The notes beneath the pieces are model-generated. The model did no database searches and was not told the DNA's origin. It saw only the letters and a list, made by a program, of their open reading frames with translations. Source: Candidatus Aenigmatarchaeota archaeon (GTDB taxonomy: Archaea > EX4484-52 > GLR71). Taken from it: DNA of 10,711 nucleotides. This document shows, one piece after another, positions 1 to 10,711 of this stretch (position 1 is the stretch's first letter; each line of letters starts with the position of its first letter). The translations under genes were made by a program, and so were the position numbers. The DNA lies in contig JAGLUQ010000018.1 in the NCBI GenBank assembly GCA_023134675.1, forward strand, positions 1 to 10,711, given 5' to 3'.

Positions 1-1848
1 CTGAACGAAAGCATGATATCAATAAGAGTCATCAATCAGACAGGCGGAGCGCTTGAAAACATAAGCATATCTGTCAATGGGCCGACACCATACTCAGAAA
101 AGACAGATGCATCAGGATGGCTCAATAAGACACAGATATTATCAGGAAACTACACGATAAGCTTCACAAACGCTACAGAATTCACAGACAACGGATATTT
201 TGCACCACAAAACATCTCAGCCACTCAGACAATAGGAAACACCACATACATAGAAGTGACAGCTATAGAAAGGATAATAAATGTCACAGTCCATGCCTAC
301 GACATAAAAGATATATACAATGCATCAAAAGCAGAAATAACAGGCAACACCTTAAACATAAGCCTGACAAATGATACAGGCACCACCCAGAATAAGACAG
401 GAGATGCAAACAGCATAATTACAAGTAACGGAATCGCCAACTTCACAACACTGTACGAAGGAGTATACAGGATAAACGCGAGCGGACTGAACTACACATC
501 AGACAATGAGACCACATTCAACACGACCGAACCAGAATTCTCAAACACGCCACAGGAGATATTCCTGAAAAAGACAGACATGGCCTACATCAACGAGACT
601 GTGCTGTCAGGTGGGTTGGCGATAGGCGGAGCCCAGGTAAAGCTGTACTGGAACTCTACCACACTCCTTGAAACAATAGCAACAGACACTTACGGAAGAG
701 CAATTATCCCTATAAATGCAACAGTATACAATTCAACACTGCATCTTGAGATATCAAAAACAGGCTATGTAACAAAGACAACAGCACAGTTCAGCATAAA
801 TATCGGCGATATATATGACAACACGACAAGCATGACACTGGAAGACTCAGGTTACAATCCTCCCGGAGGCGGCAGCAGCTCAAGCAGTCCACCATCAACC
901 CCCTCATCCTATTTTCCGCCAAGCCCGCCACCCCAAGATAATGATACAGCAGAAGACATAGACATGATACAGAAGACATACGAATATCCTGAGACACGAG
1001 AAGAGATAGAATCAGAAATAATGAATAACGCTGATCTCAACAATATGCTAAACGAATATTTCGGAGACCTGTCAGAAGAAAACATCTATGAAATCTCAAT
1101 AGAGACAGAGACAGGAATCAAAGACTTCGAGATATCAAGAGACATATACACAGATGAAGAAGGACATACAGTCATTGGCATAAACACATACTACACAGGA
1201 GACAGCACAATAGAGACCCTGGCAATCTATGATATCCTGCCGCAAGAGCTGATAGAGATAAGCGATATAGCATTCACAGAATCATCGGCAGAGATATTCA
1301 CCGATATAGGCCGAAATTCATATATGTCAATAAATTCAGGCATAGAACCAAACACATATCACAGGGTTGAATACAGGACAGACAGAAAGATTAAAGCGTC
1401 AGATATAGATAGTTTCACAAAGCCGGTAATAGTTCTCACCGACATGGCAAAGAAAGAGGCAGTAACAGAACCGGACAGGACAGATATCATAGATGAACCG
1501 GAATCAAAAAAGAGTATCCTTGACTACTGGTGGATTTTCGCCCTTGCAGCTGTAGCAGTAATAGCTGGTGTGATTGTCGCAAGAAAAGCAGGAGAAAAAA
1601 GCACAGGAAATTATAGTTTCAGTCCAAATGAAACAAGAAAGCCATTGAATCCCCCCACAACGCCTGATGCAGGCACACCTTATGGCTTTGGAATAAGCCA
1701 GAACAAGATTGCGACTTTGCCCAAAAAAGTTGCCAGCACAGTAGAGAAGATAGAAGAAGAGATATCGGAAGATATCAAAAAAGTAGCCCGAAAAGAAGTT
1801 GCATACCTCACAAAACCGCTGGAGAAAGGAAAGTTCATAGTTGACTGA
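1..1848 (+). CDS. Membrane-anchored, sequon-rich surface protein (5' partial)
   Basis: The frame is open to the left edge of the window; an ATG at 13 is internal or an alternative start, so the gene probably begins outside. Numbering from that ATG, residues 1-280 look like tandem Ig/carboxypeptidase-regulatory-type beta domains and carry 22 N-x-S/T sequons. A Gly/Ser/Pro-rich linker follows (about 283-311), then a sequon-free domain (about 312-490). That domain contains an 'IYDILPQEL...I' stretch and a late 'IEPNTYHRVEYRTDR' stretch, resembling a recurrent C-terminal beta domain of archaeal surface proteins. A single membrane helix lies at 505-527 (YWWIFALAAVAVIAGVIVA), and a roughly 84-residue Lys/Glu-rich tail should be cytoplasmic. 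The likely role is a cell-surface or adhesion protein anchored at its C-terminus; the exact function is unknown. It is the only gene on the + strand and its 3' end overlaps truA by 14 bases. It ends in TGA. Confidence 0.85.
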   Translation: MNESMISIRVINQTGGALENISISVNGPTPYSEKTDASGWLNKTQILSGNYTISFTNATEFTDNGYFAPQNISATQTIGNTTYIEVTAIERIINVTVHAYDIKDIYNASKAEITGNTLNISLTNDTGTTQNKTGDANSIITSNGIANFTTLYEGVYRINASGLNYTSDNETTFNTTEPEFSNTPQEIFLKKTDMAYINETVLSGGLAIGGAQVKLYWNSTTLLETIATDTYGRAIIPINATVYNSTLHLEISKTGYVTKTTAQFSINIGDIYDNTTSMTLEDSGYNPPGGGSSSSSPPSTPSSYFPPSPPPQDNDTAEDIDMIQKTYEYPETREEIESEIMNNADLNNMLNEYFGDLSEENIYEISIETETGIKDFEISRDIYTDEEGHTVIGINTYYTGDSTIETLAIYDILPQELIEISDIAFTESSAEIFTDIGRNSYMSINSGIEPNTYHRVEYRTDRKIKASDIDSFTKPVIVLTDMAKKEAVTEPDRTDIIDEPESKKSILDYWWIFALAAVAVIAGVIVARKAGEKSTGNYSFSPNETRKPLNPPTTPDAGTPYGFGISQNKIATLPKKVASTVEKIEEEISEDIKKVARKEVAYLTKPLEKGKFIVD

Positions 1849-2596
1849 AAAAGAAAGACTCTTTCTCCAGCAAGCCCATTTTCTCATTTATCTCTTTTTT
1901 AATTTTATTGTCAGCTTCAAACCTGACCCCCGCATCAATATCAATAAGTATCAGGTTTTCTGGTTTTGCTGCCTGATATTTTTTACTGATCCTTCTTTCA
2001 ATAAGATCTAAGACATCATTCTCTGACAGCTTCCCGAAAGAATAGTCAGTCATGCATTTAACAATACGCCGTATCATCTGCCAGAGAAACCCGGTCCCAT
2101 AAAAATGAACAATCACAATATTGCCTGCATCCTCAACAGAGACATCTATATCTCTTACAGGAGATTTAGCTTTATCTTTCTCAATCCTTGCGAAGTTAGA
2201 GAAATCATGCTTTCCTGAGAAAAGTTTTGTCGAATGGACAAGCCTGTCTATATCAATCTTAGGAACCTCATCTTTCAATATAAGATAAGCATAATGCTTC
2301 TTAAGTGGATATCTTATCTTCCCGTCAGATTTCCCGATTACAAATATATCTTCCGGAAGCTCATGGTTGAGTCTTGATATACTAAGATTCCCTTTAGGCT
2401 CAAACACAGCCAGGTTGCCGCAGGCAGACACTCCTCTATCAGTCCGGCTCAATATCCTAAACCGAGAATCTGCATCAGAGTCTATAAGTCCAAGCCTTTC
2501 AAGCGCAGAGTTGATTTCGCCTTCCACAGTCCTGCCTTTCGGCTGTACCTGCGAACCGCAGAACCCAATCCCTGTATACGCAACTTTAAGTATCAT
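1835..2596 (-). CDS. truA: tRNA pseudouridine synthase A
   Basis: This enzyme should isomerise uridine to pseudouridine at positions 38-40 of the tRNA anticodon stem-loop in the cytoplasm. At 253 residues it is normal length for archaeal TruA. The family signature RTDRGVSA lies at residues 51-58, with catalytic Asp53. The N-terminal motif YTGIGFCGSQVQ (7-18) is a variant of the usual Y-x-G-x-x-F-x-G-x-Q-x-Q. HDFSNF (130-135), GFLWQMIRRIV (169-179) and the late A-x-P-E-x-L-x-L segment (210-217) are also typical. The ATG at 2596 gives the correct conserved N-terminus. No Shine-Dalgarno is visible in the 29-base gap upstream. A T-rich TTTTTATTT at 2617-2625 sits where a TATA box for a leaderless transcript would lie, but this is weak, and truA may simply be the last gene of the cluster. 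It ends in TGA. Confidence 0.96.
   Translation of the reverse strand: MILKVAYTGIGFCGSQVQPKGRTVEGEINSALERLGLIDSDADSRFRILSRTDRGVSACGNLAVFEPKGNLSISRLNHELPEDIFVIGKSDGKIRYPLKKHYAYLILKDEVPKIDIDRLVHSTKLFSGKHDFSNFARIEKDKAKSPVRDIDVSVEDAGNIVIVHFYGTGFLWQMIRRIVKCMTDYSFGKLSENDVLDLIERRISKKYQAAKPENLILIDIDAGVRFEADNKIKKEINEKMGLLEKESFFFSQL
1895..1900 (+). terminator. Possible archaeal oligo-T terminator for the surface-protein gene
   Basis: A run of six T (within TCTCTTTTTTAATTTTA) lies about 50 bases after the TGA at 1846-1848, inside the 3' part of convergent truA. Archaeal transcription often ends at T-runs. A short inverted repeat AGAAAG-ACT-CTTTCT (1852-1866) lies between stop and T-run. Weak evidence. 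Confidence 0.25.
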
Positions 2597-2625: not shown

Positions 2626-3621
2626 TCAGTTGGGAAGAATTGAATCTGGAAGGGCTTTGGCTATATCTATATATTCCTGCGTTCTCGAATCACTGCACCC
2701 GGCTCCAAGATATACTTTTATCATGCACTTTACAGCCTCAACATCAAGCTTGCGGTTGTAAGGGTCTGTAGTGTAATGCACAAGAGCCTTTCTCATCGTC
2801 TGTTTTGTTAAGCAGTTTCCGACAGATGTCTGGTTCACACATGACGAATCGCAAAAGCTCACGCCATCAGGTAGGCAGTCACCAACAAAATATCCGTCGC
2901 AGACAGATAAACCTCCAGTACAGCCACCAGTACCCGTGCTGTTGCACACAGAGTCATCAATAAACTGGCATGTGCTGTTGCAGATATCAATGAAGTATGT
3001 CTGTCCTACTGCATCACATCTGTCAGTCCTGAATCCGGGAGGTCTGCCGTCGCACTGCGCATCAGCACCGCATGCGAGACTGCAATTCCCGTCAAGGCTG
3101 AAAACACCGTTATTGCAGGTATAACCATAAGATATATTGGCGCAGATATAATTAGAATAAGGAGAAGTCACACAGTCAGCCACATGCGAATTTGTGCCTG
3201 TGCTGTAGGTCCCGAGGCATGCCTGATACCCGGAACATGAACCCGCTTCATAGCTGTATGTAATAGTAGCATCATCAGAAGACAGGCAGACATCAAATAG
3301 ATAATTACCCTGATCGCTTCTCTCTACATGCGCATTTGTCAAATCAGAAATATCCAGAAAATTTATATCAACACAACCATTATTAAGATCCACCCTAGTA
3401 GGTATGCCTCCGATAGCATCGTGACAACAGACTTTATATGGATAATTTGTCTATGTATACAGTTCTGCATGTGCATTCGAAAGGCTGGACATCCTGTAGA
3501 GCGTGATGTTTGGAGCATTGCATACAGTCTGAACTTCACAGGACAGGACTGAAAAGGCAGGAGCCAAAATTAAGAAGAGAGATAAAAGAGCGGAAACAAA
3601 AAACAGTTTTATAAATATCAT
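2626..3621 (-). CDS. Cysteine-rich secreted repeat protein interrupted by in-frame TAG
   Basis: Family not recognised. Reading from the ATG at 3621 gives 331 codons, with a TAG at codon 57 (bases 3453-3451) and TGA at the end. The N-terminus is a clear signal peptide: Lys5, then a hydrophobic core to about residue 23, with Cys28 in a V-L-S-C context that could be a lipobox. After the TAG the frame continues without a break. A 255-codon stretch beginning with GTG at 3393 (codon 77) is uninterrupted, but starting there would remove the signal peptide and the first repeat, so 3621 is the natural start. Residues 28-160 hold three repeats centred on N-[A/S]-H-[A/V] at 49, 96 and 144, each with Cys 16 residues later. 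The rest is rich in Cys and N-x-S/T, with about 26 Cys in all, and ends in a helical segment (about 275-331). Extracellular and disulfide-bonded by inference. The start lies 12 bases after the preceding gene, in the same frame. It may be a pseudogene, a readthrough product, or carry a sequence error. Confidence 0.75.
3142..3540 (-). repeat. Three protein repeats with N-[AS]-H-[AV] ... Cys signature
   Basis: Within the cysteine-rich protein, copy 1 has NAHA at residues 49-52, copy 2 NAHV at 96-99 and copy 3 NSHV at 144-147. The spacings are 47 and 48 residues. In each copy a cysteine lies exactly 16 residues after the Asn (65, 112, 160), preceded by an aromatic-containing strand (NYPYKV, NYLFDV, YSNYI). 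Cysteines also lie before each motif (34, 83, 135). The copies are too diverged to be recent DNA duplications. They look like a small disulfide-bonded extracellular domain. Confidence 0.75.
3451..3453 (-). other. In-frame amber (TAG) codon inside the cysteine-rich protein gene
   Basis: The + strand reads cta here, so the coding strand reads TAT ACA TAG ACA AAT TAT. The protein reads sensibly on both sides: NAHAELYT before and TNYPYKVCC after. In the next internal repeat the equivalent stretch is NAHVERSDQGNYLFDVC. With no gaps the TAG (codon 57) falls exactly 47 codons before Gln104. A single C-to-T change in a CAG codon would explain it, as would genuine decoding of UAG. Confidence 0.9.
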
Positions 3622-3633
3622 AATCCCACAGAC

Positions 3634-4272
3634 CTAACCGCAACACACACCAAGACTGGCACAGCACTCCTCTTTTGTCACAAGCCTAAGATCAGAAAGC
3701 CTCGTATTGCATGTATTGCCCTTCTCTGCCGCCAGGCATGCTGTCTCCTGGAGATCAGAAAGCTTAGGTCCTGCAGGCTTAAAGACAACTGGCTCTTCTT
3801 CAGGAAGCTCAGGACCAATATCAGATATATTGTCTTCAACAGGTTCACTACCATTATCTTGTCCTACAATGACATCTTGATATTCATCAATAATATTTCC
3901 TGAAGATATATCATCAATCTCTTCCAAAAGTTCAGACATAGAAGAATCATCATGACCGGATTCCTGGATGATACGCCGTGCATTATCTAAAGATATATCC
4001 CGCCTTGCCACAAGGCTCGTAGAATACCTCTCCCTGTCACTTACATCAAGCGCCTCAAGCTCAAGCTCTCTTTCCCTTGCTATAGACACCAGAGTCCTAG
4101 CCTTCTTTTGCTGATTAAAAGCGAAAAAAAGCTCAACTCTCTCGAAAAAAAGGTCAAAAGAATACAAGAAGCCTCCAGGCATAATGCCTGCACCAGAATT
4201 ACTAGAAGCTGCATAGGATACAGGCACGGCCGACAAGGATAACAACAATGCAAAAATGATAAGTATTTTCAA
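3634..4272 (-). CDS. Secreted DUF5667-like protein with C-terminal six-cysteine module
   Basis: The N-terminus is a signal peptide: MKILIIFALLLSLSAVPVSYA, probably cut near residue 21. Residues about 30-75 (IMPGGFLYSFDLFFERVELF, then AFNQQKKA and ARERELELEA) match the DUF5667 pattern: Pro-Gly, F/L-Y, an E-R-V-x-L helix, then a K-K-A...E-R-x-x-E helix. Helices continue to about 125. A low-complexity acidic linker runs from 130 to 165 (EPVEDNIS, ELPEEEP). The C-terminus (179-211) is a six-Cys module shared with the preceding gene product. The start is TTG at 4272, chosen because GAAGGTG lies 8 bases upstream and the signal peptide begins there. It ends in TAG, and the next gene lies in the same frame 12 bases downstream. 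Its molecular role is unknown; extracellular by inference. Confidence 0.85.
   Translation of the reverse strand: MKILIIFALLLSLSAVPVSYAASSNSGAGIMPGGFLYSFDLFFERVELFFAFNQQKKARTLVSIARERELELEALDVSDRERYSTSLVARRDISLDNARRIIQESGHDDSSMSELLEEIDDISSGNIIDEYQDVIVGQDNGSEPVEDNISDIGPELPEEEPVVFKPAGPKLSDLQETACLAAEKGNTCNTRLSDLRLVTKEECCASLGVCCG
3640..3738 (-). other. C-terminal six-cysteine module, copy in the DUF5667-like protein
   Basis: Residues 179-211 follow the pattern C-L-x7-C-x14-CC-x5-CC, with Cys at 179, 188, 203, 204, 210 and 211, and a single Gly after it. The stretch before the first CC reads L-V-T-K-E-E. The same arrangement, with one extra residue, ends the neighbouring 168-residue prepilin-like protein. 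It is likely a small disulfide-bonded or metal-binding tail. Confidence 0.75.
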
Positions 4273-4320: not shown

Positions 4321-4827
4321 TCAGCAGCAAAGGTTGAAATCAGAACAGCAGCTTGCCTGCGTAACAATATCATTTGTTGCAAGACCGACAAGGTCGCAAA
4401 AACCATTGTATTCATACCTCAAGCACCATGCATTTGTCCTTATCTCCTGCTGCATGTTAACTTTTGCGGATTTTATTGTATAATCGATAGATATATTGTT
4501 CGGATAGACACCCATATATGTCACATCTTTCTCAAAATACAGAGAATACCCAGCCTTGCTAAGAACATCCCGCTCATATATCAGATATTCCTCAATATCA
4601 TCCGGTATAGATTCATGGTCAACCACAGAGATTATATTATTCAGATTAGATTCTATCTGCCTCATAAAAAAGACAGTCATATCACTCTGCATATATGACA
4701 GATCAAGTTCGCGATCCTGCGTAAGTATCTCATTCAGGACAGTAAGAGAAAACAGGATAACCACTATACCTATCACAAAGAACTGTCCTTTTCTTACCTT
4801 TGTTTTTACACAAGAAAATTCAGTCAT
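4321..4827 (-). CDS. Prepilin-like protein with C-terminal six-cysteine module
   Basis: The product has 168 residues. The N-terminus VRKGQFFVIGIVVILFSL (11-28) is a class III (prepilin-type) leader. The basic residues K10, R12 and K13 precede Gly14, the likely cleavage point is G14|Q15, and a single hydrophobic helix of about 20 residues follows. The remainder (about 36-168) should be extracellular. It contains a helix (about 45-70), a short beta region with one N-I-S sequon (111-113), and the C-terminal module C-L-x7-C-x15-CC-x5-CC (135-168) that ends exactly at the C-terminus. ATG at 4827 overlaps the preceding gene by 8 bases, pointing to translational coupling. It ends in TGA. It is probably a minor pilin or pseudopilin of the neighbouring assembly machine; the specific family is not recognised. 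Confidence 0.82.
   Translation of the reverse strand: MTEFSCVKTKVRKGQFFVIGIVVILFSLTVLNEILTQDRELDLSYMQSDMTVFFMRQIESNLNNIISVVDHESIPDDIEEYLIYERDVLSKAGYSLYFEKDVTYMGVYPNNISIDYTIKSAKVNMQQEIRTNAWCLRYEYNGFCDLVGLATNDIVTQASCCSDFNLCC
4324..4425 (-). other. C-terminal six-cysteine module, copy in the prepilin-like protein
   Basis: Residues 135-168 have Cys at 135, 144, 160, 161, 167 and 168. The spacing equals that of the DUF5667-like neighbour except for one extra residue before the first CC. C-L, Glu at the fourth position after the first Cys position, and V-T just before the CC pair are shared as well. Confidence 0.75.
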
Positions 4828-7157: not shown

Positions 7158-8090
7158 CTACCCGAAGACCAAAAACACCACAAATGCTACCACAGACAGG
7201 ACAATTGCATGCTTTACACCGGCAGCCGCGGAACCCTCGCTGATTTCACCTGCCATAAGGCCGCTTGTTATCGCCTGCACCATAGCCATTATAAAGAACA
7301 GGGCTTCAAAATAGCACAGTTGTCCCTCACCAAAACCGAAAGGCACACATATAGAACACACAAAAGGAACCATAGTGCAGTAATTTACTTCTTCCGATGA
7401 TGAGCTGGATGATCCGAAAAGGTTCACTTCTACAAGTCCTGAAGACAGGAGAGGTATAAGAATATTATACATCATAAGAGCAATCACAAGGAAAAGTACA
7501 GAGATGAAATACATCATGATGACCTGCTGAGACATATCTGATTTTCTTTCATCATGAAGCCCTTTTATTGTCTTTATGTCTGTGGAAAGGTCATCCATCA
7601 CTTCAGTGACATCACCTCCCGCATTGAACGCTTCAAGAATTATGGTGAATGAACGCTTCATTATAACGCTGTACTTAAGCCTGTCAGCAAGAGATGACAT
7701 GACCTGTATAAAAGGCATACCCCATGAAAGCTGATGTACTGCTCTGGATATTTCTAGATTAAGTTCACCATAGTCTGTATTCTTACGGCTCAGCAACGCA
7801 TCCTGAAAAGTCATGCCGCTCTTCTTTGCTTCAGCAAAATCCCTCAGGAATCTTGGAAAATGTTCTTCCATCCTACTATACTTAGAAAAATTGAAATACG
7901 CATATAATGATGATGGAATAATAGACATTATTGCCCCGATAAACAGTACAATAATGCCTATAGACTGTAGAAGAGGGTCAAAAGCAAGACTGAATCCAAA
8001 GATGATGAACAGGATGCCTAAGACAAGAGAACCCTGCTTGATAAGTCTCTCATTCTCTGGCCTGAAAAATAATTTTATGTCAAAAGCCAT
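7158..8090 (-). CDS. T2SSF/TadC-like pilus assembly platform protein (second of two)
   Basis: This inner-membrane platform protein should connect the ATPase to pilin insertion and assembly. It has 310 residues. Two N-terminal membrane helices (about 21-37 and 42-65) precede the cytoplasmic T2SSF domain (about 75-190), which contains FPRFLRDFAEAKKSGMTFQD (78-97) and EAFNAGGDVTEVMDDL (153-168), typical of archaeal ArlJ/TadC-type proteins. Further helices lie at 189-213, 261-280 and 292-309. Between helices 3 and 4 is an unusual loop (214-258) with six consecutive Ser (227-232) and four Cys (238, 245, 248, 259). ATG at 8090 follows the previous stop by 2 bases, and GGAGATGA at 8098-8105 serves as the ribosome site. 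It ends in TAG. Confidence 0.9.
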   Translation of the reverse strand: MAFDIKLFFRPENERLIKQGSLVLGILFIIFGFSLAFDPLLQSIGIIVLFIGAIMSIIPSSLYAYFNFSKYSRMEEHFPRFLRDFAEAKKSGMTFQDALLSRKNTDYGELNLEISRAVHQLSWGMPFIQVMSSLADRLKYSVIMKRSFTIILEAFNAGGDVTEVMDDLSTDIKTIKGLHDERKSDMSQQVIMMYFISVLFLVIALMMYNILIPLLSSGLVEVNLFGSSSSSSEEVNYCTMVPFVCSICVPFGFGEGQLCYFEALFFIMAMVQAITSGLMAGEISEGSAAAGVKHAIVLSVVAFVVFLVFG

Positions 8091-8092
8091 CG

Positions 8093-9019
8093 CTATTTCA
8101 TCTCCGGTGTTATTCCTTTTATAAATATTATTATACCTGCAGACACGATTGGTATGATAAAAAAGATTAAAGCCATTTGAGCGCCAACAATCATCCCTGA
8201 AAGATCAGTACCTCCCATTGAACCCATTATAGCTGTTATGACCATAAACATGATAGAACCGATCATCACGACTGTAAGATACATCTCAACAATCATCGAA
8301 AGCTTCTGCTGGAACGCCTTAAGTGTCATTTTATAACGTACAAGAGCCGCTTTTGACTTTTCATGAAGATATATTCTAAGATCACCCCCCGACATTTCTA
8401 CAGTTCTCATACCCCATAGAAGATCAACAAACTGATTTGATGGCGTTCTCTCTGCCGCATTCTTAAGCGCACTCAGCATATCTATACCAAGAACATCCAC
8501 TTCCTCTACAATCTTCCTCGCTTCCTTGGATATCTCACCATAGTCATCAAATTTAGAAAGAGTCCTAAACATAGCTATAGGAGGTGTGCCGCCTCCGGAA
8601 ATAGTCGCAAGGTAAAGAGTAGCATAAGGCACAAGACCGTCTATCTTTTTCTCTCTCTCACCCATACATATCCCCGGATATACATAAAAAAAAGCAAATA
8701 TAAGGACAGAAAAGAAAACTGCACCTAAAACTGAGAGAAACAGTGACATGAACAAGCTACCTGTTATCAGAAGTACCAATATAGACAATGGCAGTGCCAT
8801 AAAAAAAAAAACAGCAGCAGATGTGACAGCAGCGACAGAGATATAGTCCTCAAGAGACATATTTATATCTGCTTTCTTTATAGATATTTTAAGATCCTGA
8901 AAATATGCAAAATATTGTTGAAGATGAGGTGTTGCAAGGTCTGACGCAAATCTCACATAATCAAATTTTTCATGTGTTTCTTCCGGACTTTTTTGAGGTT
9001 CAAGAGTCTTCAATGTCAT
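8093..9019 (-). CDS. T2SSF/TadC-like pilus assembly platform protein (first of two)
   Basis: The product has 308 residues. A cytoplasmic N-terminal segment (1-58) is followed by about two hydrophobic helices in 60-116. The T2SSF cytoplasmic domain (about 120-240) contains IDGLVPYATLYLATISGGGT (126-145) and VEMSGGDLRIYL (207-218). Two C-terminal helices follow (about 243-265 and 277-301). It pairs with the next gene product: archaellum ArlJ carries two such domains in one chain, while here they are split across two genes, as in TadB/TadC. ATG at 9019 overlaps the ATPase gene by 20 bases. A strong GGGGAGG (9023-9029) lies only 3 bases before the ATG, so the in-frame TTG at 9013 is a possible alternative start. 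It ends in TAG. Confidence 0.92.
   Translation of the reverse strand: MTLKTLEPQKSPEETHEKFDYVRFASDLATPHLQQYFAYFQDLKISIKKADINMSLEDYISVAAVTSAAVFFFMALPLSILVLLITGSLFMSLFLSVLGAVFFSVLIFAFFYVYPGICMGEREKKIDGLVPYATLYLATISGGGTPPIAMFRTLSKFDDYGEISKEARKIVEEVDVLGIDMLSALKNAAERTPSNQFVDLLWGMRTVEMSGGDLRIYLHEKSKAALVRYKMTLKAFQQKLSMIVEMYLTVVMIGSIMFMVITAIMGSMGGTDLSGMIVGAQMALIFFIIPIVSAGIIIFIKGITPEMK
8098..8105 (-). promoter_or_regulatory. Shine-Dalgarno GGAGATGA before the second platform gene
   Basis: It matches GGAGGTGA at seven of eight positions and sits 7 bases before ATG at 8090. It lies over the last codons of the upstream gene, consistent with coupled translation. Confidence 0.5.
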
Positions 9020-10711
9020 AGTCCTCCCCTATAAGATCCATAAGTGTTCTGGTGTCATTGTAGTAAGCCTTTATGACTTCATTGACCCGCATAAAATTAG
9101 TAATATACTTATCAGACATCCACTCAAGCACTTTCATCCTCTGGCGTAGCTGGTCTTTGAGCAGATTTATGCTTATGCCTGTCTCAGCAGATATCTTGCC
9201 TAAAAGATAGCTGTCAGAGACAATGGAAAATGTATCATTAAAAGGGTTCCATTCAAATGGCTTGTTTGTTATGATTGTATCTTTTTCTGAATCATATCCT
9301 TTTATCTCTTGTATCTGAGTTACCCGTCTCACATATCCGTTCTTGAGCTTGATTCTTTTCGCAAAGACAAGCATATCTAGTGTCTCAATAAGGGATTTGG
9401 ACAGGCTTATAGGCCTTGTGACCAGTCTGTCTATCACTTTCTCAAAGGAATCTGCATGGAAAGTAGAAAGTCCGGGATGCCCTGTCGCTATCTGCTGGAA
9501 AAGGACAGAAGCCTCAACACCACGTATCTCGCCCACGACAATATAATCAGGTCTTTGGCGCAGAGAGCTTTTCAGAAGGTCAAACATGCTGACCTCCCCG
9601 CGATGCTTGCCCGTGGTATCTGCCTCCCCGAAACCGGCTCTTGAAACTTCAGGCACCCAGTGCTCATGAGGTAGCTTAAGCTCAGGTGTGTCTTCTATTG
9701 ACACTATCTTGGATGTCGGCTTTATGAACATTGAAAGAGCGTTTAGGACAGAAGTTTTTCCTGAAGCTGTAGCTCCCACAATCAAGACGGATTTACCGTG
9801 CTCGATATTAAGCCATAAGTATGCAAGCATACGGGAATCAATGCTTCCGAAATTCATCATATGCACAGGTGTCAAAGGTTCCTTAAGGAATCGCCTTATT
9901 GTTATATTTGAACCTCTTGAAGCGATATCTGTGGCAAGAGTGGCCTGAACTCTCGAACCGTCAGGCAGAGCGCCCTGAAGTATGGGTTCTGCCATAGATA
10001 TCGCCCTTCCGGTCTTCTGCGATATCCTCATGACAAGCTTGTCCAGCACTTCATGGGTCTCAAAAATGACATCTGTCTGCAGTGAGCCAAGCTTTGGATC
10101 CCTGTGATACACATAGACAGGTATGCCCATACCGTCACAGCTTATATCCTCAACCTGCGGATCATTAAGCAGCGGCTGCATACGGCCAAGACCTATAAAA
10201 TCACGGAGTATATAATACTTATATATATCAAGTTTGCTTGCATCTATATTAAACTTGAAGCGCTTCAGTATCTTGTCCATCATAGATACTATATACGCTT
10301 CAGAAGACTCCTTGCTGAAAGACTTGAAATCAACATCAATCTCATCTTCAATAACTGTCTTTATCTGTAATATACGGCTCTTGTCCTGAGGAGACAGCAC
10401 AGGCTCAACAACTTTGTATACTAAACTGTTCACCTTATTATCCCAGACAACATTTGCCCAGGCATACACTTTCTCACCACGTTTAGGAGATGGAGGTGTC
10501 AACGGATATTTTATATTAGTCTTCAGAAAATCATCAGCAGTAAGGTCTTTTCGCACCCTGACAGTCTTTACTTCAAGATTATTGAGATCAACACTCTCTA
10601 TATTATCCTTAAGCTGATTTTCTTTATTCTTAGGATTATCTTCTGGTGCATCATTGTTAAAGGAAGACCCGCCGACTGGTGTCACGACATAAGGAATTGC
10701 TGCTCCTATGC
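9000..10711 (-). CDS. Type II/IV secretion system (TadA/ArlI/GspE-type) ATPase, 5' partial
   Basis: This cytoplasmic hexameric ATPase should power pilus or filament assembly. Numbering from a GTG at 10685 gives 561 residues. Motifs are complete: DGSRVQA (242-248), Walker A GATASGKT (304-311), Asp box VSIEDTPEL (328-336), Walker B RPDYIVVGEIRG (378-389) and His box GHPGLSTFHAD (402-412). An N-terminal domain (about 95-235) with IGLGRMQPLLNDPQVEDISC is typical of the family. The C-terminus (495-560) is a helical extension. Before residue 60 the sequence is polar and disordered-looking (SSFNNDAPEDNPKNKENQ). The frame stays open from 10685 to the window edge with no ATG, and no well-spaced ribosome site precedes the GTG (AGGAG at 10703-10707 is 17 bases away). 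The true start is therefore probably outside. It is the first visible gene of the cluster and overlaps the next by 20 bases. It ends in TGA. Confidence 0.95.
   Translation of the reverse strand, partial: IGAAIPYVVTPVGGSSFNNDAPEDNPKNKENQLKDNIESVDLNNLEVKTVRVRKDLTADDFLKTNIKYPLTPPSPKRGEKVYAWANVVWDNKVNSLVYKVVEPVLSPQDKSRILQIKTVIEDEIDVDFKSFSKESSEAYIVSMMDKILKRFKFNIDASKLDIYKYYILRDFIGLGRMQPLLNDPQVEDISCDGMGIPVYVYHRDPKLGSLQTDVIFETHEVLDKLVMRISQKTGRAISMAEPILQGALPDGSRVQATLATDIASRGSNITIRRFLKEPLTPVHMMNFGSIDSRMLAYLWLNIEHGKSVLIVGATASGKTSVLNALSMFIKPTSKIVSIEDTPELKLPHEHWVPEVSRAGFGEADTTGKHRGEVSMFDLLKSSLRQRPDYIVVGEIRGVEASVLFQQIATGHPGLSTFHADSFEKVIDRLVTRPISLSKSLIETLDMLVFAKRIKLKNGYVRRVTQIQEIKGYDSEKDTIITNKPFEWNPFNDTFSIVSDSYLLGKISAETGISINLLKDQLRQRMKVLEWMSDKYITNFMRVNEVIKAYYNDTRTLMDLIGEDYDIEDS
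9023..9029 (-). promoter_or_regulatory. Strong Shine-Dalgarno GGGGAGG inside the ATPase 3' end
   Basis: The coding strand reads GGGGAGGACTATG. The match to archaeal anti-Shine-Dalgarno is good, but spacing to ATG at 9019 is only 3 bases. Spacing to the TTG at 9013 would be 9. Confidence 0.5.

Follow-up and report, generated by a model that had tools for sequence, protein, structure and literature searches.

An in-frame TAG in a gene for a probably exported, cysteine-rich protein of an Aenigmatarchaeota archaeon is best read as a recent nonsense mutation

A gene of a DPANN archaeon, probably encoding a cysteine-rich exported protein, is interrupted at codon 57 by an in-frame TAG, which we interpret, with a probability of about 77%, as a nonsense mutation of recent origin, either fixed or segregating, in a gene that is well kept in other respects, i.e., as an ordinary inactivating allele. 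The stretch analyzed (the window; 10,711 nucleotides) corresponds to contig C90 in an archaeal genome of 1.12 Mb (G000; 218 contigs, rated 85% complete). The broken gene runs along its minus strand from an ATG at 3621 through the TAG at 3453-3451 to a TGA at 2628-2626, and is flanked as follows:

9000..10685, minus strand: type II/IV secretion (PilB3-like) ATPase of a pilus-like cluster (family search)
8093..9019, minus strand: second T2SSF-family membrane protein, ending in TAG (family search)
7158..8090, minus strand: T2SSF-family membrane protein of the pilus-like cluster, ending in TAG (family search)
3634..4272, minus strand: upstream neighbor, a DUF5667 protein of 212 aa ending in TAG (at L019 and L020 its counterparts have TAA in the corresponding position)
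3454..3621, minus strand: upstream half of the broken gene, 56 codons with 2 Cys, comprising the ATG, a hydrophobic signal-peptide-like start (by eye) and the first part of repeat 1
3451..3453, minus strand: the in-frame TAG, codon 57, as read from the frame
2626..3450, minus strand: downstream half in the same frame, 274 codons then TGA, with 24 Cys, comprising the rest of repeat 1, repeats 2 and 3, a Cys-rich region and a C-terminal part
1835..2596, minus strand: truA, which comes next downstream (gene order shared by L019, L020 and L021)

The organization proposed by the first-pass annotation, namely a signal-peptide-like start, a TAG at codon 57 and 274 further codons to a TGA, is confirmed in its coordinates, with the signal peptide judged by eye. 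Self-alignment likewise bears out its placement of the TAG at Gln104 of the next repeat copy: X57 and Gln104 lie 47 codons apart with no gap, 10 of the 31 surrounding positions are identical, 47 is the best of the 80 offsets tested, and a third 'NAH' motif occurs at residue 143. Judged from these features, the gene probably encodes a Cys-rich, exported protein with three 'NAH' repeats, for which no family was found in Pfam or NCBIfam and no matching solved structure in a structure search. By base composition alone, an open stretch of 274 codons has a probability of about 1.6e-7, which, together with homologs that continue unbroken across the TAG, indicates one gene rather than two chance ORFs. 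The codon-usage score is weak (0.06 downstream, -0.15 upstream), so that the site was missed by the coding scan described below and homology carries the one-gene point.

The whole frame is present without an internal stop in three of the six congeners (G002, G005 and G006; 63% identity); of the others, G001 matches in its C-terminal part alone, and no match was found in G003 or G004 (75% and 68% complete, respectively). A protein search with the broken gene returned 14 matches, including P0001 (87% identity, 318 aa, on a contig of 25,492 bases) and P0002, which is the window's own truncated call (238 aa, 2 member sequences); nine of these were aligned, leaving out P0002 and the partial P0011-P0014. 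Orthologs in which the two halves are separate genes, named at first pass as evidence that would speak against an interrupted gene, were not encountered, the frame being whole in P0001 as in the three congeners. Eight of the nine aligned homologs cover codon 57, and the residue there is Gln in P0001, the nearest relative, and Gly (three) or Glu (four) in the seven others, with GGT, GGA and GAA as the codons of the three congeners. This spread of residues indicates that the position is not a conserved special residue. Gln codons in the sampled genes are mostly CAG (1343 vs 464 CAA), and therefore a single change can account for the TAG; within the broken gene itself they are CAG in nine of nine cases.

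Scans of the genome collection with the downstream half alone returned no relatives, and the three congeners already known were recovered by alignment. Residues 161-331, forming the C-terminal half of the protein (window 2629-3141, minus strand), show 58% identity to longer frames in G000:C50 and G001:C51 (loci L032 and L022), and also match P0011; being common to other, longer frames, they may constitute a C-terminal module shared with them. Relatives of the 'NAH' repeat (loci L023-L031 and L033) occur outside the genus in 9 of the 14 matching genomes (101 searched).

Along the minus strand the order is a type IV pilus-like cluster, the gene for the DUF5667 protein, then the broken gene and lastly truA. 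The cluster comprises the ATPase, the two T2SSF proteins and then small membrane or exported proteins with no family over the cut-off. The three congeners with the whole frame all have truA after it, and L019 and L020, the loci that reach that far, have a DUF5667-type gene before it. The proteins at window 3634-4272 and 4321-4827 have similar double Cys-Cys ends (ECCASLGVCCG and SCCSDFNLCC), and endings of this type recur at L019 and L020. A fusion of the broken gene with the 212-aa upstream gene, whose TAG at 3634 is in frame with it, was considered; we rejected it, since at L019 and L020 the two genes do not share a frame and TAA closes the upstream one, which argues that they are separate.

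The downstream half, as judged from substitution patterns, is without sign of decay. Polarized with seven outgroup proteins, the derived changes that arose after the window and P0001 diverged number 3:3 upstream of the TAG (one unassigned) and 10:10 downstream (13 unassigned), the latter a small count whose 95% interval allows a ratio of up to about 2.7 (author's estimate), so that a modest relaxed period could hide in it. Of the 120 downstream columns constant in all seven outgroups, the window breaks two and P0001 one. Restricting the outgroups to P0006 and P0009 gives 9:7 downstream; the window then departs from seven of 220 constant columns and P0001 from five. Pairs of congeners show dN of 0.14-0.15 and dS of 0.67-0.83 downstream of codon 57, such that a long unconstrained period should be visible; between the window and the congeners, synonymous sites are saturated and pN is 0.20-0.21. 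Taken together, the substitution counts and the dN and dS values indicate purifying selection on the frame, with a stop that is either recent or of little effect. The neighboring DUF5667 protein is more divergent: it is identical to P0017, from a contig of the same size as that of P0001, at 171 of 212 positions, where the broken gene reaches 277 of 317, and it has more derived changes on the window side (12:5, two outgroups).

We also surveyed TAG in 41 contigs (282 kb including the window, a quarter of the genome). Rarity of TAG as a terminator is a mark of pyrrolysine-type codes. In the sample, 45 of 265 gene-like frames (17.0%) end in TAG, and TAG makes up 4,782 of 26,948 stop triplets in all frames (17.7%), indicating that it is not depleted at gene ends. 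Consistent with the first-pass annotation, three other genes of the window, those for the DUF5667 protein and both T2SSF proteins, end in TAG. A passage of one review terms TAG use 'low (~20%)' (PMC9348620).

The sample was further compared with 602 frames from 705 kb of the congener G002, yielding 121 loci and 31,895 aligned codons. Fourteen in-frame stops were recovered, of which the TAG of the broken gene is the only one interior to a gene on its coding strand. Nine were rejected as interruptions, each lying just upstream of a same-strand gene-like frame, as were three that lie opposite a gene-like frame (L079 4655, L043 5274 and L043 16274); at the remaining one (L068 820, aligned position 4) there is no gene-like frame. 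Hence the search for other TAG-interrupted frames suggested at first pass yielded no second interior coding-strand TAG among the 121 loci, from a quarter of the genome. In the reverse comparison, of G000 frames against G002, 123 loci contained 34 in-frame stops, and there were three frameshift-like pairs; of the eight query frames inspected, five lie opposite gene-like frames. A gene-like frame of G000 (L070 7359-8192, 278 codons) meets seven in-frame stops in G002 (L141 8219-8666), including a TGA at 8219 between well-kept flanks; this G002 stretch is perhaps a decayed gene. The coding scan found stops with coding-like frames on both sides at 3 TAG, 8 TAA and 8 TGA sites. Two of the TAG sites were set aside as interruptions, since an ATG follows at once or within four codons and we read each as a boundary between genes; at the third (L047), two short frames are joined.

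An alternative that we consider unlikely is occasional readthrough by a near-cognate tRNA, e.g., tRNA-Gln, which would supply some full-length protein and render the allele tolerated. The Gln at codon 57 of the nearest relative and a downstream half conserved as well as in the sister sequence are both consistent with it, and an undecayed downstream half is equally expected from working readthrough. However, TAG serves as a normal terminator in the sampled contigs, the 121 aligned loci hold no comparable case, and RNA structure as a readthrough signal was rejected, because the 121 nt from the TAG onward fold no better than shuffled versions (z -0.16).

Also improbable is an error of base calling or assembly, or the choice of a minority allele for the consensus, with most cells carrying an intact gene. 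The base is visible in one assembly only, a single substitution is enough, and the frame behind it is not decayed, all in keeping with such an origin. Indirectly against it, the protein search recovered the truncated P0002 and no near-identical intact allele, despite near-identical copies of neighbor genes on contigs of different length (P0015, 48,022 bases; P0028, 7,572 bases).

A stronger proposal, which we regard as quite improbable, is that UAG readthrough in this gene is tolerated or exploited by the lineage, with Gln inserted by near-cognate decoding, such that one message would give both a short signal-peptide form and a full-length Cys-rich surface protein. The related possibility of natural amber suppression by a tRNA-Gln(CUA) shares with our case the Gln in the nearest relative, but differs in that no CUA tRNA was recognized, either here or among the 29 tRNA matches of G002. 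In the window genome there are 15 tRNA matches at E 0.001 and 19 at E 1. None of the 15 has a CUA anticodon (13 read by ARAGORN, two by eye, these being GAA at the intron-bearing L011 and CTT at the 59-base match L017), and none is a tRNA-Gln, from which we conclude that the recovered set is incomplete. The congener G002 has 29 matches to the 15 of the window genome (rated 85% complete), with no CUA among them (26 read by ARAGORN and three by eye, the latter less certain owing to introns). A CUA-tRNA pattern, which could miss intron-bearing genes, matched six sites in the window genome, as against 30 for the backward control, none of them a tRNA by ARAGORN. Across the genus it gave 72 matches; 32 were passed through ARAGORN (26 loci, L160-L185, plus the window genome's six) and none is a tRNA. 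A tRNA-like match in G003 (L176) was rejected by eye as the intron end of a tRNA with anticodon CAT. The amber-reading tRNA of Gln type raised at first pass was thus not recognized, in a tRNA set that is itself partial and without tRNA-Gln.

As to the pyrrolysine apparatus, the PylS C-domain profile has two weak matches in the window genome, scoring 26.6 and 20.7 bits where the cut-off is 178, and we take the frames concerned to be PheRS alpha and ThrRS; such weak matches are also seen in 13 of 14 control genomes. The PylS N-domain has no match in the window genome, and among the controls it matches only in Methanosarcina acetivorans. No PylC-like N-domain was found in it either, in a family that is not specific to pyrrolysine (matches in 6 of the 14 controls). 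The pylS search suggested at first pass thus came back negative, no PylS passing the cut-off in any of the seven genomes of the genus, or in more than two of 101 overall, both distant; the window genome is 85% complete. Among the titles in the literature searched (pyrrolysine, suppressor tRNA, readthrough and pseudogene topics), none is on UAG recoding in this lineage, and a review of archaeal codes nowhere mentions DPANN, Nanohaloarch- or Aenigmarch- in its main text (PMC9499178). Dedicated UAG decoding, by pyrrolysine or codon reassignment, would share with known pyrrolysine proteins (UAG read by tRNA-Pyl) an in-frame TAG and conserved sequence continuing across it, but with no synthetase over the cut-off, no CUA tRNA recognized in the partial tRNA set, ordinary Gln, Gly or Glu at the site in homologs and TAG undepleted at gene ends, it is hardly credible.

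Of the three explanations that the first-pass annotation left in competition, the recent nonsense mutation is accordingly the one favored, by the Gln of P0001 and the undecayed state of the gene, and pyrrolysine or reassignment finds no support. A TAG pseudogene or segregating loss-of-function allele is alike in every respect compared, i.e., a single in-frame stop, intact homologs, no second stop and ordinary residues in relatives, and we found no difference; as in nonsense-mutated genes, intact orthologs without the stop are present and the stop is isolated, not genome-wide. Under the nonsense-mutation reading, a recent point mutation would have turned codon 57 into TAG in the assembled strain; translation would then stop after 56 residues, so that a short exported peptide would be made in place of the full-length protein, and any product started inside the gene would be devoid of the signal peptide. 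We infer that the TAG allele is real in cells, with the gene thereby inactive and export lost.

The database protein for this locus (P0002) is a truncated call without the signal peptide. Were readthrough to prove true, it would represent UAG decoding in an archaeon in which no pyrrolysine genes were found. Under the reading that we favor, DPANN archaea would lose one candidate case of UAG recoding, and an ordinary nonsense allele would stand in its place.
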